This document shows, in pieces, positions 20,493 to 56,474 of a stretch of 64,000 nt of DNA. The position numbers and the translations under genes are program-made. Position 1 is the first letter of the stretch. The number at the start of each line of letters is the position of its first letter. Below the pieces are notes generated by a model. It saw nothing but the letters and a program-made list of their open reading frames with translations. It did no database searches and was not told the DNA's origin. The DNA comes from Diplolepis rosae (lineage: Eukaryota > Arthropoda > Insecta > Hymenoptera > Diplolepididae), in assembly GCA_030998225.1 (NCBI GenBank), contig JAPYXD010000711.1, positions 1,860,001-1,924,000 of the forward strand. Direction: 5' to 3'.

Positions 20493-20512
20493 CAACAATG
20501 TAACTGCGAAAC

Positions 20513-20863
20513 ATGTTAGTAGCACTATTTTCAATTCTAATTCATTCACTATTCAGATTTGTTTTCTACTCACGAGTCGAAAAAAAATTGTATTTTCGCC
20601 TCCTCATCTTGTTACTTCTCTTCTGCGTCACCTGGACCAGCACCACAAGAGCGGACACCCCGTACCAGCATCTACAATTTGAAGGTAGCACTGGGATCTA
20701 CTATGAGCACCAGGGACCAGTGAGAAGGGTTAGCAACTGGAGAATTAACACATGTCTCCATGTTGGAAAGCTTTATGACTCATTGGCCTACTATCAGCTC
20801 AAGACGAAGGCTTTAACCAAACACTGCGCTCTCTCTCGCGCTCTCTCTGTCTCTCTCAACTGA
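20513..20863 (+). pseudogene. env: Env N-terminal fragment of element C
   Basis: The ORF has a hydrophobic signal-like run (FRLLILLLLFCVTWTSTTRA), then YQHLQFEGSTGIYYEHQGPV, which parallels STGLYFEPIEKI of the B envelope and GLFYEKLENI of A. It ends early in a CT-rich tract (20822-20860) that may mark an insertion or slippage. A pyrimidine tract and AG (about 20541-20555) just inside could be a splice acceptor. Only the first 115 residues remain, so no fusion or membrane anchor is left. Confidence 0.65.
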
Positions 20864-21750
20864 GCTCAAAGATGGTTTCCACGGCAAATCTGAAACAATT
20901 TTTGCGACAGCCTGATGTTTGTTCTTCTTAATGAAACTAACAGAATTTTCGCCCGTCGACTCTTCTTGATCGAACGTCAGACGGTAGTGCTAAGTCAGTA
21001 GCTATTTTCGATTAAGCATAATTGTAATATTTTCTTGTGTCAAAATAAGACCATTACTGCCCTGGTGAATAAACTTGTTTTATTCCACAGTAGTGCAAGG
21101 TAGTAACTATTTTCGCATAAACTAATTGCAATATTTTCTTTTGTCAAAATAAAACCACCATTACGATGGTGAAAGACATTTGGCACTTCACGGTAATTAC
21201 AAGTTAAAAGATTATTTGAAAACCTTAAAATAAACAAAATAAGGTTGATATGGTAGAGTTCTGTTATCACGTAGAGTGATACACACTCTTCTAATGATCG
21301 ACATAATCGACTGAAATGATTTAGAAAAATTGATTAATAGTTTATGATACATCCGCTGCCGAATTGGCGTTAACAAGTTTCTGTGAGAAAAGTTGCGGAA
21401 CATCCGAAGCTCAGATTACAGAGCATTCGACCGGCAATCGAAAGGAACTGGACTCGATACCAGCGGAGTGTAAGCGTTCCCTTTTTCACAGAAAATTTCT
21501 TCAAAAATTATATTGAAAAATATCCATCTAGTCTTACGAGACGTTAAAATTATTTCTAAATTGCAAGTTGGTAAGGTCGATATGGTAGAGTTCTGTTATC
21601 ACGTAGAGTGATAAACAACAACTAAAATAAATTCTATAAATAAGAAAAAAAAATGAAATACGTATATTTGTAAATTTATTTGAAAAAATATATATATGTA
21701 CTATATCAAAATATACATTACTCATATTTTGTACAATACTGTATTTCTAC
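20864..21750 (+). other. Junction of elements C and B, with tandem and direct repeats
   Basis: No gene. Two diverged tandem copies of a unit of about 104 bp lie at roughly 20988-21190 (AATATTTTCTTNTGTCAAAATAA core). A 41-bp direct repeat (AAGGTTGATATGGTAGAGTT start) occurs at 21241-21281 and 21573-21613 with one mismatch. Each copy includes the inverted repeat TATCAC-GTAGA-GTGATA. The sequence from 21617 onward matches the start of copy B', so the leader of element B lies here, but I could not define its 5' LTR. Confidence 0.5.
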
Positions 21751-22278
21751 ATGTCTTCACCACCCGTTAGATATACTCTTAAACGCTCCCGAGCAGGAAA
21801 ACATATAGATGAGTTGAAACTACCAAATTGTAAAATAAGAGAAATAAAAAACGACGTTGAATTTTCCGATTTATTTGAGCAATTGATAGAGAAAAGAAGC
21901 AATTATATAAAAAACAAACTTTCGCGTAATTTAGAAAAGGAAAAGGATACAAAAATCGAATCTGTACCAGAAAACATTGAAACGAAAAGTCCCGAACCTG
22001 AATTAATATTGACTGAAAATAAAATTTCTGAATATCTACCCCCAATTATCGAAACTTTAAATATTTTCTCTGACTCGGAACCTGAAGCAAACTCGAGTCA
22101 CTTTGTTCCTAATAAAGATAAAATATCAAGTATTGAGGTTATCAGCATATTCTCAGATTCAGGATCTGAAACAGAAATTGAGGAACCCAGTTTTGCGCAG
22201 AATAAAATTTTTCTACCCAAAATAACAAATATTTGCAGTTTAGGAAAAAATAAAGTTAAATTAATTAAAGATTTTTAA
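21751..22278 (+). CDS. Acidic ORF before gag in element B (175 aa)
   Basis: An intact ORF with an ATG, ending 89 bp before gag. The N-terminus is basic (RYTLKRSRAGKHIDELKLP); the rest is charged and acidic. Two copies of a short motif stand about 60 residues apart (TLNIFSDSEPE and EVISIFSDSGSETEIEE): a hydrophobic patch next to Ser/Asp/Glu, the layout of a SUMO-interacting motif. The same gene, with stops, precedes gag in the decayed copy B', including the SDSGSETET-like repeat, so it is a conserved part of the family. The function is unknown; a role in binding host nuclear proteins is only a guess. Confidence 0.55.
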   Translation: MSSPPVRYTLKRSRAGKHIDELKLPNCKIREIKNDVEFSDLFEQLIEKRSNYIKNKLSRNLEKEKDTKIESVPENIETKSPEPELILTENKISEYLPPIIETLNIFSDSEPEANSSHFVPNKDKISSIEVISIFSDSGSETEIEEPSFAQNKIFLPKITNICSLGKNKVKLIKDF

Positions 22279-22366
22279 GAAAAGAAAAGTTATTCTATTT
22301 TTGAAAAAAAGGGGTGATATTAATAATATCAAATAAATTTATTTCTGAAAAATATGAGAAATATCA

Positions 22367-24649
22367 ATGTCGGTTCCATCACGAGACAGCAGTAAAAAAG
22401 GCACCATAACTCGTAGTCAAGCAAGGAAAACCCCAACTTTAGCAAAAGAAGTTGAAGAAAGTTCCCAAGTACCACTTAAACCAAAACGAAAAACTCAAGA
22501 AGGAAATTTACAATATTCCGAATCTTCAAGTAATTTAGATCAAACTGATCTTTTAGATATTAGCATAGGAAGTATTCCTGACGCTGAAAGTAGTACTTTA
22601 AGCAAATCAATTATTGGCACAAAAAACCCTAAGAGTCCATTTGTTGATAAATTAAAAGCTTTTATCAAACGCAATAATAGTATAATTATTGCAGGAGATC
22701 AGTACAACGATACACCGCAAATTACCCCTTCATTTGACGATACCATAGGGGATATAACACTCAGAGAAAAATCAATAATTGAAAGCATTGCAGCAAACTC
22801 AACCTTGTGTGATAGAACTTTATGCCCAGATCAATTTGGTGATATTTCAAATAATAAAATTCTCACTACACCTCAAAAAAGATACGAATCAATAGATCCG
22901 TTTGAAACAAAATCACAACTAAATAGGACTCCAGAATCTTTCAATCAAACAACAATATTTAAAAATCCAAATCTAGAATTTGAACAAGTTCAAGAAACTT
23001 TACCAAATAAAATCAATCAAATTATACTTGACGACTCTGCAAATATTGACCAGGCTCTTGATTCGCTAAAATCTTCACATCCGTACTCAACCTCTAGGAA
23101 GTCTAATAAAGAAATTTTAGCAAATAATTTAGCAAATAATTCATCGAATAATTTACCAAATAACCTACCAATACAATCCATCGAAATGATGAATTTACCT
23201 ACAAATCAACAAGTATCTCTACGAGATGCGTTAGAAATTGTCCCATACTTTGATGGATCAAATAAAGTGCCATTAACAATTTTTATTGAGGCTTGCAAGG
23301 AAGCCAAAGAAATGGTTCCAAATGCAGAAGCAAATTTGGTCAAATTACTAAGAAGCAAACTTACAGGTGAAGCCAGAAGATGTCTAATAGGAAATTATTA
23401 TAATAATTTAGAAGATTTTATTTCAAAGCTAAAAACAATTTTTTCACCATCAAAAACCGTATACCAATTACAAGGAGATTTAGGCAGGATATATATGTGG
23501 GAAAACGAAAGTGTTCTATCCTACGCAACACGCATACAAGAAATAGCAGCGGAAATCCTTGAATGTCATAAACAAAATAATAATGGTAAGGAAGCTGCTG
23601 AATTTGAAAGAAACTTGGAAAGAGACGCGATCGATTGTTTTCTCCGAGGTTTGAAACCAGAATTAGAGATACGAATAGGAACAGCCAATAAATTTGACGA
23701 AATTGTAAAAAGAGCAATACGAGAAGAAAGAAATTTAACAGCCAGAAACGAACTGCGAAGAGGAAATAAACAACACTCACTAGTCCAAGAAGTTGAGAAA
23801 TCATCATATAATAGTCGACATTTTGCAAAAACAAATAAAATAAATTTAGCACGAGAGGAACCAATAAAATGTCAAATCTGTCAGAAAATAGGCCACACAG
23901 CAGCAACCTGTTTTCAATATGTTCAACAGTTAACAAATAAAAATTGACAGAGCAATCAGTTTAGAAATAACTTGACTAGACAAAATAATCAATACCAGGG
24001 AAATATGCAAGGTCAGGGAACGCAGTGGAGACCCCCACAGAGATACCAGGTGCAAAGCCTAAATCAACAAAGTAGTAGAAACAACTATAGAGATATAAAT
24101 AGCTTCCCATCCCACCCTAATTTTTCCCAAGGAAACAGATTTAATCAAAACCCAAACTTCAATCGAAATACCCAGAATATGTATCGCAATTTTAACCAAA
24201 ATAATCAAAGTCGAAATTTTAATCAAAATTCAAATTTCAATAGAAATTCTAATCAAAATCCGAATTTCAACAGAAATTTCAATAGCAATTTCAACCAAGG
24301 ACAAAATTTCAACCAAGGTCAAAATTTTAATCAAGTTCAAAATCAAGGTAGGAATTTCAATCAAAACCCCCATTTTAATCAAAGACCAAATTTTAATATG
24401 AATTACAATGAAAATAGAAATCAAAATCCAAATTTTAATCAAAACCCAAATCAAGTTCAAAATTTCGAAGTTATTTGCTACTCGTGTAATACACCAGGAC
24501 ATACATCTAGGAATTGTAGCAAGAAAATAAATACTAATCAACAATTACCACAAGAACCACAACAACAACAACCACTACAACAACAAGAATTTAATCGTCA
24601 GGAAAACTCCAATACCCTTCCTGGAACGGGTGCACAAAGGAGGGGTTAA
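22367..24649 (+). pseudogene. gag: Gag of element B with one nonsense codon
   Basis: The frame runs from the ATG at 22367 through a TGA at 23945-23947 and on, in the same frame, to 24649. Residues 1-280 are a Ser/Asn-rich leader. The capsid follows (IVPYFDGSNKVPLTIFIEA, DFISKLKTIFSPSKTVYQLQ, FERNLERDAIDCFLRGLKPE). A first CCHC knuckle, CQICQKIGHTAATC, lies just before the TGA. After it comes a low-complexity FNQNPNFNRN tract (24110-24465), a second knuckle, CYSCNTPGHTSRNC, and a Gln-rich tail. Gag builds the particle and binds RNA. The aligned site in copy B' has no TGA, so the stop looks like a mutation. Pol starts in the -1 frame, overlapping the last codons. Confidence 0.9.
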
Positions 24650-27252
24650 ACGAACAAATATTCGCACCTAATTTGATTGAAAATAAAACTGAAAAAATCA
24701 ATTTGAATACAAGTAATACAATTCCTCATATAATTCTATCAGCTGAAGGATTGAAAAATCCTATACACATGATGATAGATACAGGAGCCGGATCAAATTT
24801 AATCAAACAACAAGCAGTCAAAACAAACGTAAAAATAAATAAATACGAATGCCTAAAACTAACAGGCATAAATGAACATCCTATATTTACACTTGGCCAA
24901 ATAACAATCGATTTTTTCGGCTACCTGACCACCCTCAACATAATACCGAACGAAGTACCTATCGAACATGATGGTATACTAGGCACAGAATTTTTCAGAA
25001 ACAACAATGCAAAAATTAATTATGCAGAGAAACAACTTGAAATAAATGATAAAATTTACCCATTTGAAATGCAAGAAACTATATTGGTACCAGCAAGAAC
25101 AGTTTCAGATTTTTATGTGAGTATTAAAAACAGTGAACAAAAACAGGGATTTATTCCACAATTACACTTATGCAATGGAGTTTATTTAGGAAATGCAACT
25201 GTTTCTAATAATAACAATAAAGCATACCTGAAAATATTCAATACAAATACACAACCTCAAAGATTAACTATACCAACTATTGAATTGATAAACTTTGAAG
25301 AACTATCAATACATGATAAAACAATAAATCAGAATGACAAAAAATTTAATTTAGGAAATGAAAAATTTAATTTTTCGCAACAAATTTTTAATGATTTAAT
25401 TACTCAGACAAATGATTATCACCAATTATTCAATATTTCAAATAAAAATCGAGAGAACGCAATTAAAGAATTATTAAGATCAGATCATTTAAACAAAGAA
25501 GGAAAACAACATGTTGAAAATTTAATTGAAAGATATGCAGATCGATTCCACATACCAGGAGAACCATTAGGAGCAACAACTGTTTTACAACACAACATTC
25601 CAACAACAGATGATCAACCGAAATTTTCAAAACAATATAGATTCCCTCCGGTACATAAAGAAGAAATTTCACGTCAAGTAAATGAACTAATTGAAAATAA
25701 AATTATTAAACCCTCACAATCACCATATAATACACCTGTTTGGATAGTACCTAAAAAATTGGACTCACATGGAAATAGAAAATGGCGAATGGTACTTGAT
25801 TTTCGCAAACTCAATGAAAAAATGATTGGAGATTCTTACCCTTTACCAAATATAATCGATATTTTGGATCAATTGGGATCTGCACAATATTTTTCCGTAT
25901 TTGATCTTGCTTCCGGATTTCATCAAATAAAAATGAGCCCTGAAGACTCTCATAAAACACCTTTTTCCACCCCTTATGGCCATTATGAATTTGACTGTAT
26001 GCCATTTGGTTTAAAAAACGCACCAGCTACCTTTCAACGATTAATGGATTTAGTTTTAACAGGACTTCAAGGAACTGAATTATTATTCTACTTGGATGAC
26101 ATTATTTTATATGCAAATTCTTTAGAAGAACACGAGGAAAAATTTAACAAACTAATGGAAAGATTAAGTGCAGCAAATCTCAAATTACAGCCAGATAAAT
26201 GTGAATTTTTACGCCCAGAAGTTGCATATTTAGGACACATAATAGACAAGGAAGGAATACGACCAGACCCTAAGAAACTAGAGGCAGTAAAAAATTTTCC
26301 AATACCAAAATACCCTAAAAATATTAAACAATTTTTAGGATTAGCTGGCTACTACCGAAGATTTATTGATGGATTTTCTAAAATTGCAACACCCTTTAAT
26401 CAACTTTTAAAGAAGGATGTAAAATTTAATTGGTCTGAAAAACAGCAAGAAGCAGTTGAACTTTTGAAAGAAAAATTGTGTGAAGAACCTCTTTTACAAA
26501 GACCAGACTTCTCACAACCTTTTATTTTGACAACTGATGCGTCAGGATTTGCTATAGGTGGAATACTTTCACAAGGTAAAATAGGTAAAGATAAACCTAT
26601 AGCTTATACTTCTAGATCATTAAATGACTGTGAAAGAAAATACGACAGATACGAAAAAGAAGCCTTAGCAATTATTTATTGCGTAACATATTTTCGCCTT
26701 TATTTATACGGAAGAAAATTTACCTTGGTCACAGACCATAAACCACTAGTATGGTTTCAAAACTCGAAAGATCCTTGCTCTAGAGTAACTAGATGGAAAC
26801 TAAAACTGGCAGAATATGATTTTGATGTTGCATATAAGGCAGGTAAAACTAACGTAAATGCAGATGCTTTATCAAGAAATCCTATTGACGTAGAGAATAT
26901 TGAACATAATTATATAAACAATAAGATTAGTAGTGAAGTAAATTTAGTTAAACCAAGAGATGCAAAACGCATATCTGATTTAGAATATAAGGAAAAAGTA
27001 CCCGTAACAGATCTAGCATGCGATGAAGAAATAAACTATGATAATTTTGAAGAAGATATAGAGGAGAATAATTACGAAGAAACTGAACAATTTATGAATA
27101 AGAAAAAATTATTTAAGAATAGAAATAATCAAGGAAATTATGATAAATTAAAATATAAGGACATTGAAAACGAAAATATAACCACTGATAATTCTGGAGG
27201 AAACGAACAAATGCCGATAAATGATGAGAACTTAATTAAGGATACTAGAAAT

Positions 27253-27780
27253 AAGGAATTTAATGCTATAAATTATGAAGATTTTGAAAAACGAAAAACT
27301 TGTAAAGATTTTGAAAATGGTGGACAATTAAACGAAGAAACTTTATTTAGGAATATTGGTAATAAAAAACGTTATTACGCGTATATTAATGAGGGAAAAA
27401 TTGATTGGAATAATACTGAAAAATTATTAAATGAAGAATATTTACTGATAAATGATGAAGACAATGATAAAGACAATGATGAAAAATGTATTAAATTGAA
27501 TATTAAGGATATTAAAAATAAGAAATTTAATGATATAAATTATAAACATTTTGAAAAACGAAAAACTTGTGAAGATTTCGAAAATATTGGACAATCAAAC
27601 GAAGAAACTTTATTTAAAAATGTTGATGATAAAAAACGTTATTATGAAGATATTGATGAAAAAAAAATTGATAGAAATGATATCGAAGAATTATTAAACG
27701 AAGAATATTTACTAATAAATGATAAAAACAATGATGAAGACAATGATGAAAAATGTTGTATTAAATTGAATATTAAGGAT
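27253..27780 (+). repeat. 267-bp tandem repeat in the pol linker of element B
   Basis: Two head-to-tail units start at 27253 and 27520 and code for 89 residues each (KEFNAINYEDFEKRKTC... and KKFNDINYKHFEKRKTC...; both reach EELLNEEYLLIND-type ends and Asn/Asp-rich tails). They are in frame and diverged at many positions, so the duplication is old and the frame was kept. The unit has no fold that I recognise. Confidence 0.85.
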
Positions 27781-28137
27781 ACAAAGAAAAGAACGGTTTA
27801 TGAAAATAATGAAAAAACTATTGAAGAATTGAACGAAGAAGATATATTTAACATAATTAATAAAAAGTTGATTAATGTAATAATGAATAAAATGAAAAAT
27901 GAGGGAAATGGAAACACTTTTTACAAATTGATCGATGAAGGAAATATTTCGGAAACATTTGTTTCGCAATTTTTGAAATGTGTCATGGATTCAATTCCAA
28001 TTTTATTAGAAAATAAAAATAAATGCTATGCTATGCAAACAAGAAGTCAGTTAAAGAATTCGAAGAATATAAGTAATAATAATGAAGATAATATAAAAAA
28101 TAAATTGATAAAAAATGTTGAAGTAACAAATAAAGTA

Positions 28138-28221
28138 AAAAAGAAACGTGGAAGGCCACGAAAAATTATTCAGGAAATAAAAATACAGGAACATATTAAA
28201 AAGAGAGGTAGACCCATAAAA
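28138..28221 (+). other. Two AT-hook motifs in the pol linker of element B
   Basis: KKKRGRPRK (28138-28164) and KKRGRP (28198-28215) are AT-hooks, short Arg-Gly-Arg-Pro cores that bind the minor groove of AT-rich DNA. They lie between RNase H and the macro-like domain and are followed by basic KKRK patches and an acidic tract. They could guide the integration complex to AT-rich chromatin. I do not see them in elements A or C. Confidence 0.8.
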
Positions 28222-28609
28222 TGCATAAATAAATCACCTGAGATTAATAAAAAACGTAAATTTACGGAATCAGAAGACGAATCCGATTCTGATCCAGATT
28301 ATGATATTAAGCAAAAGCCAAAAGCAAATAAGAAGAGGAAACATTTTAAGGAAGATGAAGAATTAAATGAAGAAAGTAATTTTGAAACAAATTCTGATTT
28401 TTCAAGTGAAGACGAAGAAGAAGAAGAAACACAGGAAAATCTTCAGAACATAGAATATGAAAACGAAAACGAACAACCGGATATACTAGAAATAGAAAAT
28501 TCTGAAAACTCTGATGAATGCGATTTTACAGAAGAAAGACCACCCCCAGAGCCACCCCCTAATCAACCTTCAACATCTGGATTGCCTACGACACAGAAAA
28601 ATATAATTG

Positions 28610-29010
28610 AATGCCGCGACCAATTAACGATGAGAAAAGATAATTATGCGTATTTTGTGACCAATAAAGGAGAACCTCGCGATATAGGCTCTAAACTCTT
28701 GGAGAAATGTGGAAAACTACCTAATTTTAAAAATTTACAAAAAGAAATTATCCAAAAATTACGTAAGGGAAATCAATACCATTTTGTAGTTCCAATCGAA
28801 GATGAATTTAAGGCAAGTCTAGGAGAAACGACTAAAGATATTAAATTAGCGATTTATTCTCTTCATTCCATGGTAAATGAATTAAATATTAAATCAATTA
28901 GCATTGCGAAATCACCACACATTAACAATGTTTTGTGGGAAGAAATTTTGGCTACATTAAAAATAGCATTTTTGGATTCTACAATTAAAATAATAATTTG
29001 TATTGGTATC
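28610..29010 (+). other. Macro-like domain in pol of element B
   Basis: The region between the linker and the integrase reads YAYFVTNKGEPRDIGSKLLE, then YHFVVPIEDEFKASLGETTK, LAIYSLHSMVNELNIKSISI and ILATLKIAFLDSTIKIIIC. The order of strands and helices resembles ADP-ribose-binding macro domains (AhCVS...GIA..F; LVTK; al..l; W..V..ll..F). The glycine-rich ligand loop is weak, so binding may be lost. The same segment is readable in elements C (about 19200-19600) and D (about 62900-63180). It may be a family-specific connection domain with only a remote macro fold. Confidence 0.5.
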
Positions 29011-30126
29011 ACACAATACCCTACAAAAGAGCAAAGAAATCAATTAATCGAAGAAGCTCACTCATCTGCCATAGGAGGACATAAAGGAGTAACAAAAACT
29101 TATAATAGAATCAGACAAAGATACTATTGGGAAAATATGAAATTGGACATACAAAAATATATACAACTCTGTTTACAATGTCAACTTAAAAAACTTGTTC
29201 GGGTCAAAACGAAAAACCCTATGATAATTACCGATACCCCAGGAACTGCATTCGAGAAAATATCAATGGCTATTGTTGGGAAGTTACCAATAACTTCAGC
29301 ACAAAATCAGTATATACTTACAATTCAGGATAATTTTACTAAATACTCTTTGGCAATTCCACTCCCAAATCACCAAGCTGGAACAATAGCAGATGCTTTT
29401 GTTAAGAAATTTATTTGCATATATGGCTCGCCAAAAGCAGTTTTAACAGATCAAGGAGCAGATTTTCTCAGCAATTTAATGAGAAAAATGGCAAAGCGAT
29501 TCCGTATACGTCAATTTAAAACTATTGCTTATCATCCTCAATCAAACGGATCATTGGAAAGATCCCATCACGTTCTTAAGGAATATCTTAAGCAATTTAT
29601 CGAAAAAGCGCAGAATGGGATGATTGGATTGAATTAGCAATGTTTTCATATAACACGAGTGTTCACGAAGGAACGAAATGCACACCTTACGAATTAGTCT
29701 TTGGAAAATTAGCACGTTTACCATCAGGCGATCCTTTACCAGAACACGAAAAATGAAAAATGACATGAAAGAACATGACAAAATTAATTACAAAATTACA
29801 TGAAATGCATGGAATAGCAAGACAGAATTTAATAGCAGCTAAAGAAAAATCAAAGGAATACTATGATAGAAAAATTAATCCACAGAATTTTAAAATCGGA
29901 GATAGTGTATTTTTACTGGAAGGTGGAGAACTAAAGAAGTTCGAAAATCAATACTCAGGACCATACGAAGTACTTGAAATATTAGGCAAAGGAAACATAA
30001 AAATTTCAGTTAAAAATAAACCTAAAATTGTTAATATTAATAGACTCAGACTTTCATACATAACCCCACCAGCAACCAATCAGAGTAAAAAGAATTACAA
30101 TTAAATAAAAATTATTGCATATCACA

Positions 30127-30408
30127 ATGGAACCAAAACATCGCCAACGCATTGATTTATTATGTGACTTAATCGTTCGTCAAATTGATATGAAGGCCTT
30201 ATGGCCATACTTATTCATAAATGGAATATTTAATTATGATGATTGCAACGTACCTTATTGGTCTCAAGATATAACAAATCCAGAAATAATCAAAGACATA
30301 ATCTTAACAATCAAAACAAGAGGACCTTACGCATATTACGATTTACTAAGAAGCTTACGACAATCCGATCAAGAATTTTTAGCCGACATCCTAGATATGC
30401 CCAACTAA
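30127..30408 (+). CDS. CARD-only protein of element B (93 aa)
   Basis: The intact ORF starts at the first ATG (30127), 23 bp after pol. The whole protein has the six-helix layout of a caspase-recruitment domain: MEPKHRQRIDLLCDLIVRQI as helix 1, then ALWPYLFINGIFNYDD, IIKDIILTIKTRG, and the hallmark RGPYAYYDLLRSL (residues 65-77) followed by DQEFLADIL. CARDs pair with CARDs of initiator caspases and apoptosome adaptors (Dronc and Dark in insects). A CARD without a protease or adaptor part would be expected to block such assembly, as cellular CARD-only proteins do. It was probably captured from a host caspase or adaptor. The effect on apoptosis is inferred. I know of no errantivirus reported with such a gene. 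Confidence 0.8.
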   Translation: MEPKHRQRIDLLCDLIVRQIDMKALWPYLFINGIFNYDDCNVPYWSQDITNPEIIKDIILTIKTRGPYAYYDLLRSLRQSDQEFLADILDMPN

Positions 30409-30484
30409 GTATAAATTTAATAAATTAAAAAAAAAAAGAATTTATTAGCAGTTACTAGCTGCTAATTGAGAAATATCATTTTAC

Positions 30485-30486
30485 AG
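30485..30486 (+). promoter_or_regulatory. Splice-acceptor-like site before the glycoprotein gene
   Basis: The sequence atcattttacAG lies 4 bases before the ATG at 30490, a pyrimidine-rich tract with AG. Retroviral env genes are expressed from spliced RNA. It fits, but no donor was identified. Confidence 0.4.
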
Positions 30487-30489
30487 ATA

Positions 30490-31631
30490 ATGAAACCAAA
30501 AGTCAAGAAAATCTACAACATCTTTTGCCTTTTACTTTGGAGTGGTACAGTACACGCCATTATTGGATATAACTGTGGGACGAATCATCTGAATATAACA
30601 ACCATGTCTTTACTGGAGGTAGGAGAATGTGATATTCCAGAACCTCAGGTACAAGTAGAAAAAATATACCTTCAACTTTTACAATTAAGTGACTTTACCT
30701 TGACAAAAATTATTCAATGTAAAGTAGAAGTAGACAGAAAAATCGAATATTGTGGAATGCACTCTCACACATCAGCCGTTATTAACGGATACAGAGAATA
30801 CATCCAAGAAGTGTCTAGAGATCAATGTAGCAAAATGCATGAAACTGGAGTATTTTTAGTCTCACTAAATACACAAATAACTGGTCTAAAAATCAATAGA
30901 ACTTCCTCACATGCTATAATGTTAGCAGGATCTACGCAAGTCAATGGACAATGCTCAGGATCACAATATTCCGATCTTTTTGGAACATGGGAAAACGTTA
31001 TAGTATATGCAAAATACAGAATAACCCTACAAGAATACCAAGCAACAATCAATATAAATACAGATAAAATTCATTTAAAATCTGGAGTAATTTGTTCACT
31101 CTCTGATACTACATGTACTGACGAACTAGGAGGTGGACAAACTTTTTGGAATCCATTACCCAACGACAATTGTAATTTTCAAAAATATACAGTATTATAC
31201 GAAGGTTCAGCAAATAAAACTTGGGAAGATTCTGGACATTATTTACAAATTTTGGTACAGCAAGCGCAGGATTTATAGGAATAATAATAATAATTAGAGG
31301 AATTAAACTAATAGCAGACACGATCATACATGGATACGCCCTACATAGTGTATTTGGTTGGTCAATCCATCTTCTTGGTGCACTTTGGGATTCAGTAACT
31401 AATCTTTTATTGCATCTAGGAAAACCCGGAACAAACACGGAACAAGTGAGAGAACCAGCATTGGAGTTACAAAAAGGAAACCCTTCAGCCCCCCAGCAAG
31501 GAGTACAAACGCCACTGTACACAGAACTCACCCATACAGGTAACATACGCACTTATACTGAAGCAAACCTTTATCCTCAAGCTCAACTTAATAATATCGA
31601 AGAACCATCAAGCTATCCTATCCGTTTGTAA
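30490..31631 (+). pseudogene. Chuvirus-like glycoprotein, middle deleted and frameshifted
   Basis: The first frame (30490-31278, 262 aa) has a signal peptide (IYNFCLL-like hydrophobic run ending VHA) and an ectodomain with YNCGTNHLNITTMSLLEVGE, QCKVEVDRKIEYCGMHSH and VSRDQCSKMH. That pattern is the N-terminal half of chuvirus-type glycoproteins, which some insect retroelements carry as env. The C-terminal part is in another frame (31221-31631): membrane segment GFIGIIIIIRGIKLIADTII, the juxtamembrane YALHSVFGWSIHLLGALWDS and a cytoplasmic tail. The central ectodomain is missing and the two parts overlap out of frame, so no anchored full protein is made now. A secreted N-terminal form of 262 residues could still be produced. 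Confidence 0.72.
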
Positions 31632-31647
31632 TACTTAACCTCGTAAA

Positions 31648-32193
31648 ATGTCAATAACAACTGTTACTTGCGAGAAACAAGCAGTCCAAAATAATCCGCG
31701 AGAAGAAATAGCCAAAGCAAACAAAAAACCTATCGAATATCTATATAACTACATAAAACAAATAAACAATGACGTACTACCACAATTTAATACTACCATT
31801 AGCCATGTAACAAAAGATACAGTTTATTACAGTGTAGCAGTTGAATATGAAAACTATACAATAATGACCACTTCAGATCAAATAGATATAGCAAAACAAA
31901 ACGCAGCACAAACCCTTTACTACCTACTAACAGACAAACGTATCCCAGAAAGTAAATACGAAGACCATACAAACATAATACCTATGGAACTGGAAAAACA
32001 TTGCATTTTGAATAAAATTGAACAACCAATGTACTCATACATTAAAACAAAAATTTCAAACAGAAAATTTAATTGCATAGCAATTTGCAAAATTGGCAAC
32101 CTAAGATACAGTGGTATAGGAGGAACTTGTTTATCAGCAAAACTTTCAGCCTCAATAAAAGCCTTAAAATCACTCACTCGTAAGACAACGTAA
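31648..32193 (+). CDS. Protein of two tandem dsRNA-binding domains, element B (181 aa)
   Basis: Intact ORF, ATG 16 bp after the glycoprotein stop. Domain 1 (residues about 28-95): helix KPIEYLYNYIKQINN, strands FNTTISHV, VYYSVAVEYENYTIM, and helix DIAKQNAAQTLYYLL with the AK..AA pattern. Domain 2 (about 112-177): helix ELEKHCILNKI, strands MYSYIKTKI, FNCIAICKIG, LRYSGIGGT, and helix LSAKLSASIKALKSL. Both follow the alpha-beta-beta-beta-alpha order of the double-stranded-RNA-binding motif. The usual Lys pair at the start of the last helix is reduced to a single Lys in each. Several insect viruses use dsRNA-binding proteins to suppress RNA interference. That is the likely role here, by inference. 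It could also act as a host-type Dicer partner mimic. Confidence 0.75.
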   Translation: MSITTVTCEKQAVQNNPREEIAKANKKPIEYLYNYIKQINNDVLPQFNTTISHVTKDTVYYSVAVEYENYTIMTTSDQIDIAKQNAAQTLYYLLTDKRIPESKYEDHTNIIPMELEKHCILNKIEQPMYSYIKTKISNRKFNCIAICKIGNLRYSGIGGTCLSAKLSASIKALKSLTRKTT

Positions 32194-32270
32194 AACAATA
32201 ATAACAACCTTAACTAAATAATCAAAAAGTAAATACATATAATAAATTAACATTTCTAATTTTGTTTTTA

Positions 32271-32272
32271 AG
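32271..32272 (+). promoter_or_regulatory. Splice-acceptor-like site before the dsRBD-like/CCHC gene
   Basis: A pyrimidine-rich tract (catttctaattttgttttta) ends in AG 14 bases before the ATG at 32286. It would supply a spliced RNA for this ORF. Confidence 0.4.
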
Positions 32273-32285
32273 GAAAAACATTAAC

Positions 32286-32813
32286 ATGGATACCCAACCT
32301 ATACCAAGGACTTCAGCCTCCATGAATTTAAGAGCAATAGAAGAATCAAAATCACAAAAAGACACGTATAAAACAAAAACCTTAGGTATCATTAATTACG
32401 TAAGAATTTTGAGAGATTTAACAAATAAATACGGACTCGAAGAACCAGAATTTCTAACCTATAAAGATTTTGACATTGACAAAAGGATAATTTTTACATC
32501 ATACTGTAGAGTAGAAAACCAAACAGTAATAGCTACAGGAACTATAGCGATAATAACCGAAAACGAAGCAGCATTCAAGCAAATAAAATTGATACAAGAA
32601 AATTACGACCTTCGTGAAGAAAAATATGAAAATTTAGAAACACAAAAAACTAAATTCCAAAATAAGAGCACTCAAACAGATTTTCACCCAAGATTGGTAC
32701 CCTTTTGTAAAACATGTAAAAGCTTCAACCACACCTCATACAATTGTTCAAAGAAAACAACGAAAACTAAAAAGCCGACAATTTTTAGGAAATTTTTAAA
32801 GCTCTTTGCATAA
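32286..32813 (+). CDS. dsRBD-like protein with CCHC knuckle, element B (175 aa)
   Basis: Intact ORF from the first ATG. Residues about 37-104 again show the dsRNA-binding layout: helix YVRILRDLTNKYGL, strands EPEFLTYKDF, IIFTSYCRVE, TVIATGTIAII, and helix NEAAFKQIKLI. The AK motif of the last helix is absent, so RNA binding by this domain is uncertain. A retroviral-type zinc knuckle CKTCKSFNHTSYNC (Cys141, Cys144, His149, Cys154) follows, then a basic Lys/Thr tail ending RKFLKLFA. The gene adjoins the tandem-dsRBD gene and may have arisen from it by duplication with a knuckle added from gag. It probably binds RNA; the partner is unknown. Confidence 0.6.
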   Translation: MDTQPIPRTSASMNLRAIEESKSQKDTYKTKTLGIINYVRILRDLTNKYGLEEPEFLTYKDFDIDKRIIFTSYCRVENQTVIATGTIAIITENEAAFKQIKLIQENYDLREEKYENLETQKTKFQNKSTQTDFHPRLVPFCKTCKSFNHTSYNCSKKTTKTKKPTIFRKFLKLFA

Positions 32814-32850
32814 TCAAAATATCACCTATGAATTCATTTTAACAAATAAA

Positions 32851-32897
32851 TTTTCTTTCAGGTTACATACTAATACAATCTATTTTTCTTGTTTTAG
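32851..32897 (+). promoter_or_regulatory. Two splice-acceptor-like sites before env of element B
   Basis: Two tracts, ttttctttcAG (AG at 32860-32861) and tatttttcttgttttAG (AG at 32896-32897), stand 60 and 25 bases before the env ATG at 32922. Spliced env RNA is the rule in errantiviruses. No donor site was pinned down. Confidence 0.5.
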
Positions 32898-32921
32898 GAC
32901 ACAACCAGCCGAGAAAGTGCC

Positions 32922-34613
32922 ATGTATGAAAAAATACTATTCCTTCTCAATTTTTGCACAATCCTTAATTCAATTTTTGTCCAAAAATCCAACCTCAATC
33001 ACTATTATACAAAAACTAAATTCGAAAATTCAACGGGACTCTATTTTGAACCAATCGAAAAGATACAATTTTTTAAAGAAGAAAGTTACCTAATATCCTA
33101 TTTGGACATATACAAGATATTAAATATGCAAAGTTCATTAATTGAAATTTACAAAAATGCCATTCATTTCTGTAAAAACATTCAAGAAAACATATACTGT
33201 ATCAAAGAATATAGTAATAAAAGATTCAATAGCCAAAAATCCAAGACAGCAAACTTAATAGAAAAAATCTACTACCTATTTAACGATACTAAAATAATAA
33301 TTCCAAAATATTTACCACATTTTATAAAAGATAACTTTGAACTTGAAGGAGAAATAATTAATATTTTTAAAGACGCTAAATACAATTCATATTTATCTTC
33401 ACACCCTTTGAATAATACAATGACAAACTTTAATACTACTTTCAACATAATAAGTATTTACAATTTTTGGATACAAGATTACCCAGAATATAAAAACGAT
33501 AAAAAATCTAGAGCAATAGAATGGCTAAATGATATACTTGACTTATTTGATAAATATCTTCTATATCTTCAAGAAATATTCGAATTATTGATTTATGCAA
33601 AAAATGAACTTTGGCGTCCCGAATTCTTTGATCCATCAACATTTAATTCATATCAACAAAATTTAAAACAAGATTTCATTAATTTTAATTTATCAGAAAT
33701 AATAAAATATTCAAAAATTCAATACCTTATATATCAACACCAATTAATTTTAACACTGAGTACTCCAAGCATTGGAAGAAATGAATTTCAAATTTATAAA
33801 ATTCATCCTTTACCTATAAACCACGACCTTCCTATTAATCCCAAACCAACTATATTTTTGAAACCTGAAACGCAATATATAGGAATTTCTGATGACAAGA
33901 AAAATTACTTCATTTTAGATGATAATTACTTAAATTCATGCAGTAACATAAAACAAAGAATCATTTGCAATAATATACCTACTCTTCTTAATATCAACAA
34001 AAACCCAACCTGCGAAACTTCGTTATTCATAGGTTCTTTTCCTAATCTTTGCAACTATATCATATATTTCAAAAATCATCCAATTTTAGTACCACTAAAA
34101 TCCCACGATGCATGGCTATATTCTTCTTCTTCTCTCCAACAGATAAAACTAGAATGTCCACAGGAACCAAATATAATGATTAACCTCTTAGATAACGGAA
34201 TACTTCAAGTTAATCAAGAATGTCAAATAAGCGACTCTTTACCCTTTATCAAATCCAAAAATCTCAATAATTTTAATATAAACATTATCACACCTCCATT
34301 CGAAATACCGCTAAAAACAATCGCACCACATTTAAATCAAATATCGATCGAAAATCCGTTACACCTCGAAAAACTCATAGCAAAAAAGAAATTTCTTGGG
34401 AACATGCCCCTATCACTTCTCGAATTCGAAATGAGCATTCCAGACCAAATTAATGAAAATTTTTAAAAAATATTGCAAAATAAGGAAAACTACTACTACG
34501 ATCACATATTCAAATTAATAATTGGGTTAACTGTTACATTATCACTAACCATATTAATCATCACAATAATTACAATAAAACTATATCGATATTATCTTAT
34601 TATGAAAATATAA
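32922..34613 (+). pseudogene. env: F-type envelope protein of element B, frameshifted before the anchor
   Basis: The main ORF (514 aa to 34466) begins with a signal peptide (KILFLLNFCTILNSIF), then STGLYFEPIEKI, the same N-terminal motif as in the C and A envelopes. The ectodomain has Cys motifs (CSNIKQRIICNNIP, CETSLFIGSFPNLC) and the YKIHPLPI region that parallels YKIYPFPV in A. I see no RxxR furin site or fusion peptide at the place where A has HRRR. The transmembrane segment (LIIGLTVTLSLTILIITIIT) and tail lie in a shifted frame at 34480-34613, after an A-run. As it stands the protein would be unanchored. It served membrane fusion or attachment in the ancestor. Confidence 0.75.
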
Positions 34614-35039
34614 ACCTAGAAAATACACACTTACATTTAGATTCATTGGACGAAGAAACTACAGACAATTTAAAAAGAAGTAACAGTATACAAACTGTAA
34701 TCTTTATACCCAATTCAAACAACCAACTAGAACAATCGTAATTCATAATAATAATAAAATCCGCCAAAAGTAAAAACGTCAACTCTCGGCAAAAATCAAA
34801 AACAAATATGTCAGAACAACTAAAACTCCAAAGAACTATCATTACAACCGGAAAACGCAACGACCCGAACAGAGTAACGAAAATTTTAAAACTAGTCAAA
34901 GTTCCCTTCAAGAAAAACTCAAAAGGTATCATCCTAGTCTTAATCAAACACCCCCACCTATATAATATCATATACATCAAATGCATTTGAAAACTTGCTA
35001 ATAAAGAACAAATACCATTTTTTTTGGACAACACTAGAA
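34614..35039 (+). other. 3' end of element B, truncated
   Basis: The stretch holds a 60-codon ORF (34808-34990, starting MSEQLKLQRTIITTGKRND) of unknown meaning. No polypurine tract or LTR is seen before the GC-rich non-LTR sequence that begins at about 35040, so the 3' LTR of B is lost or displaced. Confidence 0.4.
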
Positions 35040-35076
35040 ACAGTCATCAGACTTTCCTATTGCGCTATCCAGCCGT

Positions 35077-35900
35077 CCTGCATCCTAGCAGACCATATGT
35101 TTTACGCAACAGCAGCGACGAAGGAGTATGTGGCGACACTTCGACGCATAATTGAAGAGTCTGAGAGGAGGAGTGAGGGGCGCATGCATGAGATGCGTGC
35201 GCTTATTAAGATTATGACAGCTGCCGTTGCGCGGCAGACAAACGTTAGTAAAGACGTAAAGAATGCGCTTCCACGATTGGAAGCGATAATAGACCACCTC
35301 TAGGAGGCCAAAAAGGACGAAAACGAGGCCAAGAGGAAGCTCACGTCCTTTGCCGCTATAGCTGGCGGAGGCAGCTCCAAAAGGCAGGCCTCCACCTCTC
35401 CATTGGCACCAGCAGAGGGTGCCAAATTGGCAAAAAAGAAGAAGGGGACTGCGGCGGTACAGAAACCGCCCTCCGAAGAATGGACCGTCGTTCAAAACGA
35501 CAAAAGAAGAAGAAGAAGGAGGGAAAAGGGGAGAAGGCGGGGAAAACACTGCCAGATCCCAAAACCTCCCGAAAAAAACGAGCGTAGAGGCGGCTTCGTC
35601 CTGAGGCGATCGCGCTCAGACCTGCGGAGGGTAAAACCTACGCCGAAATACTGAGCGGGATTCGTAGCAAGGTCGACCCCAAAGAGAGCGGAACGGAAAT
35701 CAAAGCCGTTCGCAAAACTTGGAGTGGCAACGTCCTTATAGAGATAACGGAAACAACGGCCGAGGGGAAACAGGGCTTCACCGATGCCTTAAAGGAAGCA
35801 ATCTGAAAGTCGGGCAGCCCCAAGTGCTTCCTGTGCACAGGTGTGGCAGTAGGGCACGTAGCGGGGTCGGGAAATTGCAGGGTCTTCCGAGAAGCCCTAG
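35077..35900 (+). pseudogene. ORF1 (Gag-like) of the plus-strand non-LTR element
   Basis: Broken frames give a helical N-terminus (TKEYVATLRRIIEESERRSE), a basic Lys/Arg tract (NDKRRRRRREKGRRRGK) and a conserved core (KVDPKESGTEIKAVRKTWSG) that matches KVDPRKAGLEVLSIRRTRKE of the neighbouring minus-strand element. Most of the zinc-knuckle region is deleted; CFLCTGVAVGHVAGSGNC (about 35828-35880) is its end. The protein packages element RNA. Inactive. Confidence 0.75.
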
Positions 35901-35918
35901 CAAAATATGGCCGCTCCT

Positions 35919-38041
35919 CATAAAGGTTCTGCAGGGGAATTTGAATAGAAGCAGGACGGCCCAGGACCTGCTTGCTCAGATCTGTCTCGAGAAGAACGCT
36001 GACATAGTGATCGTCAGCGAACAGTACCGAGACAGCACTGAGGCAGGCTGGTTTCGCGACGTCCTCGGTATAGCAGCCATCTGGATTCCTGACACGCGGC
36101 GACATTTGGTGTCGCATCACGGGTCGGGAAGAGTCTATGTCTGGGTGAGATGCAGCCAGATAAATTTCATCAGCTGCTTCCTCACCCCAAATGCGAGCAT
36201 AGGTGACTTCCAGGCAAAGCTAGATTGCCTGGAAGACGCAGCCATAGACATGGAGGGGGAGCTGATAGTGGCCGGAGATTTTAACGCCAAAGCCCTCGAG
36301 TGGGGCGAAAGGCAGCCCGACTCAAGAGGCGGACGTGTCCTGGACTTAGCGTCCAGGCTGGGGCTAGTGGTTCTAAACACTGGCTCCACGTCCACCTTCA
36401 GGAGGGTTGGCTACAGGGAGACGATCCCGGATGTCTCCCTGGCGACGGAAAGCCCGGTGGCGCATGTGCAGGACTGGCAGGTGATCGAGGACTTTACGGC
36501 CAGCGATCACCAGTACATCACGTTCCGCGTTCGTGATGGAACGCCGTCCGGGCTGCTGCACAAAGCGGCCCTCCCCCAGGTGGAACGTCAAAGAAATGGA
36601 TATCGAGAGGCCGTCTCTGGCCCTAGAACGCGGTTAGCAGACCCTAGCCGAAAAAGAGGATGGAGCTGTGTCTCCAGCGTGGGCCGAAGTGGTGACAAGC
36701 ATGATAATGCGATTGATCCACCAGGCCTGCGCGGAGGCTATACCGAGGAGTAGAGCACGCGATAGCAAGCGTCCTGCTTATTGGTGGACAGATGAAATTG
36801 CGGCGCTCCGAAGGAAGTGCCTAAGATGCAGGCGCGTGGCTCAACGAGCCAAAAAGAGCGACCGCAATGCGGCCCTGAGAAGAGACGAATATCTGGTGGC
36901 GAAGAGAGCCCTAGGTCGGGCCATCAAAGCCAGTAAGCACCGATGCTGGAACAGACTGCGGGATGATCTGAAAAACGATCCGTGGGGACTAGGGTATAAA
37001 ATCGTGATGCGGAAACTCGGGGCTTTCGCTAAGAATGCCCCGATGGAAGCAGAAACGATGGACAGGATTGTCGATGCCCTATTCCCCACTCATCCAAAGC
37101 GGTCTGAGGATCCACGGAAACCGGAAAACCTGGAGGCTCCACCATTCACACTGGTGGAGCTCAGAAGAGCTGTGTGTTCATTGAAGAACAGAAAGGCTCC
37201 GGGTCCGGATGGATTGCCGGCTGAAGTGCTGAAGGCAGTAGCGAGGAGTCATCCGGAGCTCTTGCTTAACATGTACAACTCTGGCCTTAGGGCGGGTGTT
37301 TTTTACTCCCGCTTGAAGGAGGCGAGGCTTGTGCTGATAGGCAAGGGCAAAGGACCCGTAGATGCGCCGTCGTCTTACAGACCTCTGTGCATGCTGGACA
37401 CTGCCGAGGAAGCTCCTGGAGAAGCTGGTGAGACCGCGTCTCCAAGCCGCGCTGAAAGCGGCCGGAGACCTGTCCGAGAGGCAATACGGCTTTCGGACGG
37501 GTAGGTCCACCGTAGATGCTCTCCAGGAGGTAGTGAAGGCTGCCAAGAGCGCGGAGAGGGTAACCATTACTCCAGACCCGTCTGCCTCTTGGCGATGCTA
37601 GACGTCAGAAGTGCCTTCAATTCCGTGAGGTGGGTTGACGCGCTGAAGACTCTGAAGCGGGACTTCCAGGTACCCCAGTACCTTCTCCGACTTATCGGAG
37701 ACTATTTGAAGGACCGCTTCATTGTCTATGATACAGAGGATGGCCCAAAACGCAAAGAGCTCACGGCGGGAGCGGCCCGAGGCTCTATCCTGGGTCCCGA
37801 CATATGGAACGCCTCCTATGACGGGATCCGTCGCATGGAAATGCCAGATGGCTGCTTCCTGATCGGGTACGCGGACGACGTGGCGGCTCTCAACTCCGCA
37901 AGTGATGTGGAGGCTGCCCAACTGCGTCTCGGTCAGGTAATGTGCCGTGTTCGCCGCTGGATGCTAGACCACTGGTTGGAGCTAGCGATGGCGAAAACCG
38001 AGATCGTGCTCCTCACGCAGAAGAGGATTCCCCGCTTCTAG
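35919..38041 (+). pseudogene. ORF2 (endonuclease and reverse transcriptase) of the plus-strand non-LTR element
   Basis: The AP-type endonuclease starts VLQGNLNRSRTAQDLLAQIC, then IVSEQY, GELIVAGDFNAKALEWGE (catalytic Asn/Asp) and FTASDHQYITFRV. The RT follows from about 37180 (NRKAPGPDGLPAEVLKAV, SYRPLCMLDT, RQYGFRTGRSTVDAL, MLDVRSAFNSVRW) with the catalytic GYADDVA at about 37866. Frames change at about 36600, 37400 and 37590. The C-terminal zinc region is missing because the element is cut at 38041. This enzyme nicks target DNA and primes reverse transcription on it. The R1/TRAS clade is suggested by the endonuclease start. Confidence 0.85.
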
Positions 38042-39129
38042 GAGGATCTCCGGATATGCTCCGATCACCTCTTTGAGGATTTCGTTCGGCACTCCGTCGA
38101 ACCCCGATCCCCGTCCTTGCCTTGAGCCTTCTGCCCGCTCTCTTTAGTTCCTCGAGAGTGAAGAGTTCCTCGCGCCGGACCACGCAGGAACTTCGGTCCT
38201 GCCTTTGGAACGGCTCCACGTGTGGAAACAAGCTTCGCACCATATACTGGACATGATCGTGATTATCCAGGCCCGGGGTCTTTCTTCCAGTCCCCAATTT
38301 CTTTGTAACTATTTTGATGGCGAGACCCCATGGGTCCTTCTCAACCTCTCCAATCAAGTCTTTCCAGCATTGAAGTCGGCTTCTCTTTATGCCTCGCCTC
38401 AAAGCTGCTTTCGCCCTTTTCCATGCCTCGTGCAGCAGAAGATCACCCTTTCAGCGAGTGAATGTCCGCCGCGCTGCGAGGCATTCTCGACGTAGGGTGG
38501 CCAACTGGTCATTTTGCCAGCACATTGAGCCCCTAGCTTGCCTGCGATTCCGGCGGGGCATCGAGCAGTCACAAGCTACGACAACCTTTTGCCTCGCCGA
38601 GCGCACAGTGTTCTCCAATGACCCAGCAGGCTCGACCCAACCAAGCTCATCGATGAGCCGGGTCGTCTCGAGATGGACTTTAAGTCTCTCCCTGCAGAGC
38701 CGTCTCGCGTTCCAGGAGGGGCACCTTCCTTCACTGACCCTACCCTTATCCACTGCTTGGCGCCCTTGTTCTAGATTGAACTCGATGCACTGGTGGTCAC
38801 TCAAGGTTGTCTCCGCGAGAACCGACCAAAACTCCTCCAGGAAATCCTTGACGCCCAAATCAGGGTTACAAATAAGGATGCCGGCCCTCCTTGATGCATC
38901 CTGATACCAAGCAGAGTTGCTGCTCACTAATGAGCAGCACATCGGCCCCCCTCTCCCTGGCAGTCTTCATTAGGAGGTCCTTGGCATCCTTCCCCCTTCC
39001 GAGGTTGAGCTGCAGGAACTTCAATTCCTGCCTCTCAACCTCCGAAGCTGTTCCCGGAAAACCGAGCAGGTGCCGCTCCCTGACACATGGGCGACATCTT
39101 TGTCGCCCCTGTCTACACATGTCAGGCAC
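38013..39129 (-). pseudogene. ORF2 fragment of the minus-strand non-LTR element
   Basis: Read leftward: the endonuclease start (LKFLQLNLGRGKDAKDLLMK, VLLISEQ), then a deletion to DPDLGVKDFLEEFWSVLAE-like sequence with TTLSDHQCIEFNLEQG, then the spacer before RT (MRRGIKRSRLQCWKDLIGEV, KDPWGLAIKIVTKKLG). It ends in the first RT motifs (GVPNEILKEV in another frame) at the junction with the plus-strand element. Same clade as its neighbour, but a different copy. Confidence 0.8.
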
Positions 39130-39837
39130 CTTGGTGGCGCCTTACAACCCCTGGCCAAGTGTCCCGTGGCGCCGCACCTCCAACAGACGTTTTTCCTGTC
39201 GGGGTTGCTGCAGTCCCGGGACCCGTGACCGCACCCAAGGCACCTGAAGCAGCGGGCGACTTCCGCGTGCTCGCGAATGCGGCACGCAACCCACCCGATC
39301 CTCAATTTACCTAGCTGAAGCAGACGCGCGGTTTCTGCCTCAGCCAGCCTGATCACTGCAGTCTTCACCCCACCAAAGCGGGTGAAGAGCCTGCAGGATC
39401 CGTCGAGTGCCGGTCTGTCCAGTGCTAAGCACAAGGCAGCCACGACCTCTTCTTTCTCAACGGTCTCGTCGAGGTCCCTAATTTCGAGGGACCTCGTCGA
39501 GACCAGGGCTGAAATTTGTGCTCTTTCCCCGACCGCTAGGTCGAGCTCCTTTCGGATGGCCGAAACGTCTCCCCCCGTTTTGAGGAACAGAAGGACTTCT
39601 TCCTTCCTGGTCCTCCGGATAGACAGGACCTCAAGTCCTGCCTTCCGGGGGTCGACTTTCGCCTTCATCTCCTTCAAGATGTCTGGCCGTCCTTCGCCGA
39701 CACCTTGTTGGCGTCGCCCGACCTGGCGGGCGAGGAGCGCTTCGTTTTAAATTTGGCAACAGTTCCCTGTGCCTTTTGCACAGGGTCCTTCGCCTTTTTC
39801 TCCAGATTATGTTGAACATTTGGGCGTATAATATCAT
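39021..39837 (-). pseudogene. ORF1 (Gag-like) of the minus-strand non-LTR element
   Basis: Two overlapping minus-strand ORFs. The longer (39677-39021) has the core KVDPRKAGLEVLSIRRTRKE, an RNA-recognition-like stretch (SLEIRDLDETVEKEEVVAA, RIGWVACRIREHAEVARCF) and zinc knuckles CFRCLGCGHGSRDC and CWRCGATGHLARGC, then a third Cys-rich motif (CLTCVDRGDKDVAHVSGSGTC). It overlaps the start of ORF2, the usual arrangement. The 5' end of the element is near 39840. The protein binds and packages the element RNA. Confidence 0.85.
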
Positions 39838-56253: not shown

Positions 56254-56474
56254 AGCAGCTAAAATAAATTCTAGAAATAAATAATAACATACATAAACCT
56301 GTGAATTCGGTTACCAATAATACTAAAAAAAAATATATTTATTATACATTTTTTATCGGTCGCAAATACATATACGAGTACAGTCGAAAGAAGGTTGATA
56401 ACTAAGAAAATTGTGCGATTTACGAATTCAAAAAATATGCATGAGGCATATTTTGTAAAACACTGTGTTTTTAA

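Follow-up and report, generated by a model that had tools for sequence, protein, structure and literature searches.

Complex retroviruses with regulatory and anti-host genes have been described in vertebrates, and insect errantiviruses carry the textbook set of gag, pol and env. Does a retroelement in the gall wasp Diplolepis rosae depart from that plan by carrying genes directed against its host? The element, here called element B, lies on the + strand at 22370-34613 of a 64,000-nucleotide stretch (the window; contig JAPYXD010000711.1, positions 1,860,001 to 1,924,000), where the open reading frame (ORF) list and a Pfam search resolve it as a single copy. An earlier account made from the letters alone (the sequence-only reading) had placed behind its pol a CARD-only ORF, a chuvirus-type glycoprotein (GP), an ORF with tandem double-stranded RNA (dsRNA)-binding domains (dsRBDs), a further ORF with dsRBD-like and CCHC parts (ORF4), and an F-type env, and all five were found at those places and on that strand. 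We think it probable that element B is a broken copy of an errantivirus-like family of several lineages with a conserved cassette of CARD, GP, dsRBD ORF and ORF4, joined in part of the lineages by an F-type env, and that its small proteins suppress apoptosis and RNA interference (RNAi).

The cassette recurs throughout the 757.7-Mb genome to which the window belongs (loci are coded L, contigs C). The dsRBD ORF has at least 151 matches and the CARD ORF at least 150, pieces included; both are lower bounds, with only 150 of 754 dsRBD and 150 of 1187 CARD first-look candidates scored. At 55 of the 150 dsRBD places listed, a listed CARD lies 1 to 6 kb upstream on the same strand, and within 6 kb no listed CARD lies downstream or on the opposite strand. 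Twenty loci of 9 kb were then compared (rows 2-18, 22, 24 and 26 of the dsRBD list; rows 19, 20, 21, 23 and 25 were skipped). GP is followed by the dsRBD ORF in all 20, with GP fragmented in several; CARD lies upstream everywhere but in L021 (19 loci, with a partial CARD in some), ORF4 lies downstream everywhere but in L040 (19 loci), and in 18 loci a pol precedes the CARD. CARD runs for 93 amino acids (aa) from an ATG in 13 of the 20 and ORF4 for at least 175 aa in 12 (two without Met there), and GP is fully open in 1 of 14 measured. The 181-aa dsRBD ORF is intact in 19, a biased count: dsRBD score decided which loci entered the set, and of the five skipped rows four have a stop in the dsRBD ORF.

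More distant lineages repeat the arrangement. L041 (C358) carries the integrase end, CARD (93 aa), GP (668 aa), a dsRBD ORF (212 aa, 3.8e-8), an ORF4 homologue (105 aa) and an F-type env (489 aa). L049 (C350) has integrase, CARD, GP (676 aa), dsRBD ORF (243 aa), ORF4 (123 aa) and the start of env at its edge, and L043 (C182) has integrase, CARD, a fragmented GP, dsRBD ORF (245 aa, 7.6e-13), ORF4 (128 aa) and an F-env-like frame of 540 aa. Every part is present in L044 (C278), with GP and env fragmented. L048 (C382) holds integrase, CARD, GP within a 766-aa frame, dsRBD ORF (245 aa) and ORF4 (194 aa), with no env ORF listed in the stretch. In L042 (C427), the integrase end, CARD and GP are followed by a weakly supported dsRBD-type ORF (230 aa, dsrm 0.089) and F-env-like frames in two pieces; ORF4 was not seen in the fetched stretch. 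L045, initially a candidate host CARD, proved to be integrase-CARD-GP. The sequence-only reading had asked whether the gene order recurs beside related pol genes, and within this genome (20 loci and the further lineages) it does; other genomes were compared at the protein level only.

Profile searches recover the CARD that had been claimed. The L041 homologue scores 30.9 bits, above the PF00619 cut-off of 23.9, and of the 20 members of the CARD alignment 16 match the Pfam family with E no higher than 1, the best reaching 4.8e-7; the window copy falls below the curated cut-off (E 2.9e-4, 21.3 bits). A genome search with PF00619 gave 57 CARD matches, and in 47 of them the frame is open and 93-108 aa long, resembling the CARD of the elements; the cut-off is passed by 37 of the 57, host-like ones counted and 4 only with their in-frame neighbours. 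Host-like CARD exons are present in the genome, and the matches at C284:24095373 and C399:4981949 look host-like. The match at C357:526211 lies in frame behind an integrase. The exons at L047 looked Dronc-like, but a PDB search with the first of them gave no caspase. The element's CARD is a six-helix death fold. Caspase-9, Apaf-1 and Dronc CARDs are all among the top 11 structural matches of its model, many CARDs (Apaf-1, MDA5, RIG-I, CED-4) follow caspase-9 in the list, and the eight top matches of the CARD profile all come from caspases, once Dronc and otherwise caspase-9, at E 0.077-0.29. In the protein database, all 58 candidate relatives match at E up to 1 and 6 carry a precomputed CARD domain; the only two with names are isoforms X5 and X6 of LOC117169146 from the cynipid Belonocnema kinseyi (55-56% identity). 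Six database proteins (P0060, P0068, P0071, P0087, P0090 and P0091) have CARD stretches fused to ORF4 and are likely deletion derivatives of the cassette.

The tandem-dsRBD ORF of the window matches dsrm at 4.4e-8, above the cut-off (its halves alone, 0.0067 and 3.2e-4), in agreement with the earlier assignment. Its domains are most similar to those of Dicer-partner proteins, the nearest solved relatives of the profile being Loquacious, R2D2 and RDE-4. With divergent members added, profile E-values reach 4e-10 for the dsRBD ORF and 6e-7 for ORF4, whose dsRBD profile is nearest TARBP2. At E up to 1, relatives number 14 of 35 database candidates for the dsRBD ORF and 25 of 64 for ORF4. For ORF4 itself, the claim of a dsRBD-like part with a CCHC motif stands in part: a CCHC motif is matched weakly in the window copy (0.0072, below the cut-off) and dsrm similarity appears in four other loci, but the window copy has no dsRBD match. 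In L041, LPD3 (0.0013) outscores dsrm for ORF4, and in L048 a CCHC-like stretch is seen by eye where Pfam lists none.

Selection acts on these frames. Pooled pN/pS is 0.271 for CARD (window and 16 loci), 0.290 for the dsRBD ORF (window and 20) and 0.330 for ORF4 (window and 15), among rows in register with more than 75% aa identity (4 rows dropped for CARD as absent or out of register, 5 for ORF4). The medians of pairs with dS above 0.1 are 0.169, 0.220 and 0.189, respectively. For the comparison across copies that had been proposed, pN/pS is well under 1. Between lineages, w is 0.07-0.27 for CARD where dS is computable (dS 0.77 to saturation) and 0.10-0.17 for GP (5 loci), values that are uncertain in the wide comparisons, where dS is mostly above 1. 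The argument from open frames alone was dropped as weak: a 93-codon ORF easily stays open, and the CARD intact rate and length predict 0.6 of 14 intact GPs (1 seen) and about 9 of 20 intact ORF4s (12 seen). A neutral-decay simulation of CARD relatives only left the frame open in 2-9% of runs at 55-71% identity, and in most comparisons, though not in all, CARD changes are milder than neutral ones; this result is less strong than pN/pS and open to bias from the database. Contig-length coincidences between database clusters had chance probabilities of 0.0015 (dsRBD-ORF4), 0.025 (CARD-ORF4) and 0.13 (CARD-dsRBD) and are superseded by the loci.

Short open frames that merely resemble CARD and dsRBD are hardly a credible account of these results. 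Such an account can draw on the subthreshold window CARD, the window ORF4 without a dsRBD match, the readiness of short ORFs to stay open, and CARD and GP intact rates that length alone predicts; set against it are the GP-dsRBD order in 20 of 20 loci and other lineages, the pN/pS of 0.27-0.33 and the profile E-values. We rejected it on recurrence and pN/pS, and on the same two grounds the CARD ORF is more than chance. Retroelements are known to transduce host sequences, and host-like CARD exons occur in this genome; the small ORFs could be passenger exons, captured by one element and amplified without function for it. We hold this to be very improbable, since CARD keeps w at or below 0.27 over dS of 0.77 to saturation and a cynipid has a related CARD among its annotated proteins. 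The gene content of the cassette is real and under selection.

Both glycoproteins were followed through the copies. In L041, PF24664 matches GP at 2.9e-253 over residues 6-656 of 668, a chuvirus-type glycoprotein inside a retroelement, and GP is a single ORF in L042 (670 aa). The window GP matches at 30487-31278 and 31218-31628, covering profile positions 3-255 and then 538-650; positions 256-537 (about 280 residues) are missing and the frame changes there. A genome search with PF24664 returned 2273 first-look candidates, of which 68 were scored and 62 of these had no stop, a share biased upward because the best-scoring candidates were scored first. Baculo_F finds an F-type env downstream of pol in both the window and L041 (env-like frames lacking a Pfam call were named by eye). 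Among the 20 loci, a window-type env follows ORF4 in three (L021, L023 and L034) and an env-like stretch of 42% identity in three more; L022, L030 and L033 have a weak env-like stretch alone. No + strand frame of at least 120 aa was found for more than 2 kb behind ORF4 in 10 of 10 loci examined (L022, L024, L026, L029-L033, L035 and L036). Alignments through the env-free stretch are 95-98% identical among L024, L025, L031, L032 and L033; L030 and L032 are 91% identical, their match stopping about 1.3 kb behind ORF4. To judge from these alignments, sublineages without a readable env have spread, env seemingly having been lost and GP kept. Database protein P0014, with a dsRBD end joined to env, is likely another deletion derivative of the cassette.

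The features of the window copy are collected in Table 1. The order of the pol domains (RT, RNase H, then integrase) is that of errantiviruses, and none of the 10 Pfam families listed for pol is BEL-specific, which speaks against BEL/Pao. The name retroviral would rest on these domains and the two envelope-type genes. A long acidic insert with a weak AT-hook match separates RNase H from integrase, and self-comparison shows repeats in it at about 267-bp spacing (27209-27828). The integrase end of pol is frame-broken in the window; in L041 and L044 the C-terminal part continues in frame from the preceding integrase. With this break, the internal loss and frame change in GP and an env membrane part out of frame, the window copy is defective. 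The description of an accessory cassette therefore needs qualifying: its five features were correctly placed and its three small ORFs (CARD, dsRBD ORF and ORF4) are open as described, but GP, whose ATG is at 30490, lies in two frames with a large part gone, and env has lost the frame of its membrane segment.

Table 1. Features of the window copy of element B, in window positions
Feature	Position	Strand	Evidence
gag ORF, zinc knuckle near end	22370..23947	+	weak zf-CCHC matches
Asn/Gln-rich stretch with further knuckle, different frame after gag	23948-24649	+	by eye
pol: protease-like, RT, RNase H, integrase	24595..29637	+	RVT_1 1.4e-36, RT_RNaseH 1.8e-36, Integrase_H2C2 2.1e-21, rve 6.1e-10
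Integrase C-terminal part, own frame	29769..30104	+	Integrase_p58_C 0.0032, under cut-off
CARD-only ORF, 93 aa	30127..30408	+	Pfam and relatives
Chuvirus-type (Monjiviricetes) fusion glycoprotein (GP), N-terminal part	30490..31278	+	PF24664 2.6e-86
GP C-terminal part, different frame	31218..31631	+	PF24664 4e-29
Tandem-dsRBD ORF, 181 aa	31648..32193	+	dsrm
ORF4, dsRBD-like plus CCHC, 175 aa	32286..32813	+	weak CCHC; dsrm in homologues
F-type (baculovirus F-like) env ORF	32922..34466	+	Baculo_F 4.9e-24
env membrane-anchor/tail, different frame	34470..34613	+	by eye

Expression was predicted by ranking 3' splice sites with a generic acceptor matrix of our own over 256 AG sites in the window. The predicted env acceptor (ending at 32897, 24 nucleotides [nt] before env) ranks 1 of 256 and that of ORF4 (ending at 32272, 13 nt before ORF4) 3 of 256; a possible GP site ending at 30486 ranks 22 of 256. 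Elsewhere the env acceptor ranks 1 in L043, L044 and L049, 3 in L041 and 6 in L042; across six other loci, GP ranks 2, 2, 3, 27 and 71, ORF4 7, 12, 14, 22 and 70, and CARD 9 to 79. The best dsRBD acceptor ranks 34 to 119 across the seven loci scanned, and the dsRBD start lies 10-16 nt past the GP stop in the window (16 nt), L041, L042, L048 and L049. We infer splicing and reinitiation from these positions, and anti-apoptotic and anti-RNAi action from the domains. Because predicted 3' splice sites stand just before the start codons, env, ORF4 and, less firmly, GP would come from spliced subgenomic RNAs. The dsRBD ORF, having no strong acceptor in seven loci and starting so close behind GP, would be reached by ribosomes that reinitiate on the GP mRNA. 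The CARD protein, modelled as the caspase-9/Apaf-1 type, may act as a CARD-only decoy that plugs the Dark-Dronc apoptosome, like ranavirus GIV-CARD; the tandem-dsRBD protein may bind dsRNA or replace a Dicer partner and so blunt production of small interfering RNAs, with ORF4 assisting by means of its dsRBD and its zinc knuckle. Entry could take two routes, one for each of the unrelated envelopes; some sublineages have kept GP and show no env ORF.

A number of results weigh against this reading of element B. Self-comparison of 20000-36500 found no pair of long terminal repeats around the window copy. The acceptors are uneven (rank 70 for ORF4 and 71 for GP in single loci), and in L048 one lies 1 nt before the dsRBD ATG (rank 34 of 312) and scores like the window GP site, which counts against reinitiation. 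For the dsRBD ORF and ORF4, the profiles of the window lineage alone find no dsRBD in PDB. What we take to be the usual dsRBD lysine motif, judged by eye, is partly to mostly lost in the window copy, so its dsRNA binding may be weak. The Pfam search of the window ORF4 gave no dsRBD match, and its homologues match dsrm below the curated cut-off (L048, 6.1e-4; L049, 0.0019; L043, 0.0026; L041, 0.066). The AlphaFold model of ORF4 is poor (37.6), and its profile and the dsRBD ORF profile do not align (0.3%). Between lineages, w is 0.22-0.54 for the dsRBD ORF and 0.34-0.75 for ORF4, again with dS mostly above 1; this looser constraint fits an arms race and also relaxed constraint.

Some of these points bear on what the two RNA-binding candidates do. 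They could instead serve the element's own RNA in a chaperone-like way (packaging, nuclear export or translation control of unspliced RNA). The zinc knuckles (the weak CCHC match of the window ORF4 and the stretch seen in L048), the lost lysines and the Cys-bearing tails seen by eye on the dsRBD proteins of L042, L043, L048 and L049 suit such a role, but the closest solved dsRBD relatives are Dicer partners, and host conflict accounts for the faster divergence between lineages better than a chaperone role would; we regard this alternative as rather unlikely.

Further results against the reading concern the CARD. Among the CARD ORFs of L041, L042, L043, L048 and L049, that of L041 alone passes the Pfam cut-off. 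One of five AlphaFold models is confident (91.7 versus 72.0-59.1), Foldseek with the CARD model gave nothing better than E 0.001, and the CARD profile has no significant match among solved CARDs (best 0.077, with a ferritin next at 0.72). Against each of two host-like CARD pieces tried, the viral CARD scores about 4 bits, so its target is a guess. The protein could self-assemble or pair with a different CARD protein of the host, for instance as a scaffold or to steer an immune pathway, and leave apoptosis alone: sequence does not single out a partner, and many CARDs follow caspase-9 structurally. We give this possibility a minor share, in view of the caspase-9, Apaf-1 and Dronc CARDs near the top of the structural list, the caspase chains that lead the profile list, their modest E-values notwithstanding, and a ranavirus CARD-only protein of the same size that inhibits apoptosis (PMC4457926).

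Other sequences in the window surround element B. Upstream of gag, at 21751-22278, is an ORF of 175 aa with no Pfam match; its C-terminal part recurs at 56716-56922 (55% identity), ahead of a second, incomplete member of this gag-pol family (about 56432-60990, 74-80% nt identity). A related integrase (44% identity) at 19607-20863, ending by eye at 20492, has an F-env-like frame 12 nt on, with no room for a cassette; it is apparently a cassette-free relative. Element A (6125-10850) has gag-like and RT/RNase H frames with 45% pol identity to element B, and a 658-aa F-env-like frame overlaps behind RNase H, the integrase apparently deleted. Directly behind element B, two opposed stretches (35304-38041, +; 38013-39746, -) resemble non-LTR retrotransposons on visual inspection and perhaps truncate its 3' end. 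A tandem array of about 190-bp units occupies 50587-51601 (self-comparison).

Taken to its full extent, the cassette would define a complex insect retrovirus lineage with a CARD decoy, an R2D2/Loquacious mimic, a further protein combining dsRBD and CCHC, and two envelopes whose fusion classes are unrelated, the set being kept through divergent lineages in gall wasps; we put this at about even chances. If true, with an element seemingly aimed at both apoptosis and the Dicer pathway, insect retroviruses would have met small-RNA immunity with dedicated genes, and the CARD decoy and the R2D2/Loquacious mimic would be natural tools. The two envelopes, one apparently lost in some sublineages, would make envelope replacement observable in progress. 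Viral contigs searched with CARD, dsRBD, RT and GP queries gave no relatives, and a literature search of partial coverage turned up no account of elements of this kind with CARD or dsRBD genes, though one may have been published.

In common with errantiviruses (the gypsy/ZAM/TED group, Metaviridae), element B has a pol with RT, RNase H and integrase domains and, downstream, a baculovirus-F-like env that a predicted acceptor precedes; between pol and env it adds a further glycoprotein of unrelated type and three small genes, and some of its sublineages show no env ORF. Env from a spliced RNA is typical of Drosophila errantiviruses (PMC12992720). Anakin, a Pao-chuvirus hybrid of mosquitoes, is likewise a retroelement whose presumed envelope is a glycoprotein of chuvirus type (PMC7642597); Anakin is BEL/Pao, whereas the pol of element B looks gypsy-like and is accompanied by CARD and dsRBD genes and an F-type env. 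A gypsy element with GP is by itself not new, because mosquito gypsy elements with type III fusion glycoproteins are mentioned in PMC13172572. A Hymenoptera survey (PMC10084718) reports Gypsy fragments beside chuvirus-type glycoproteins and no clear capture by Gypsy elements; element B would be an example of the capture sought there. For the CARD, GIV-CARD of grouper iridovirus is the nearest functional precedent: it is a virus-borne CARD-only protein of 91 aa (93 aa here) that resembles human ICEBERG (PMC4457926), whereas the model of the element CARD is nearest the caspase-9/Apaf-1 CARDs. R2D2, Loquacious, RDE-4 and TARBP2 have tandem dsRBDs in common with the element protein, which is retroelement-coded, 171-245 aa long and, by eye, degenerate in its RNA-contact lysines in the window lineage. 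Viral RNAi suppressors of the dsRBD type exist, such as Drosophila C virus 1A. That protein is also a small insect-virus protein with a dsRNA-binding domain, whereas element B, a retroelement, encodes one protein with two dsRBDs and another with a putative third.

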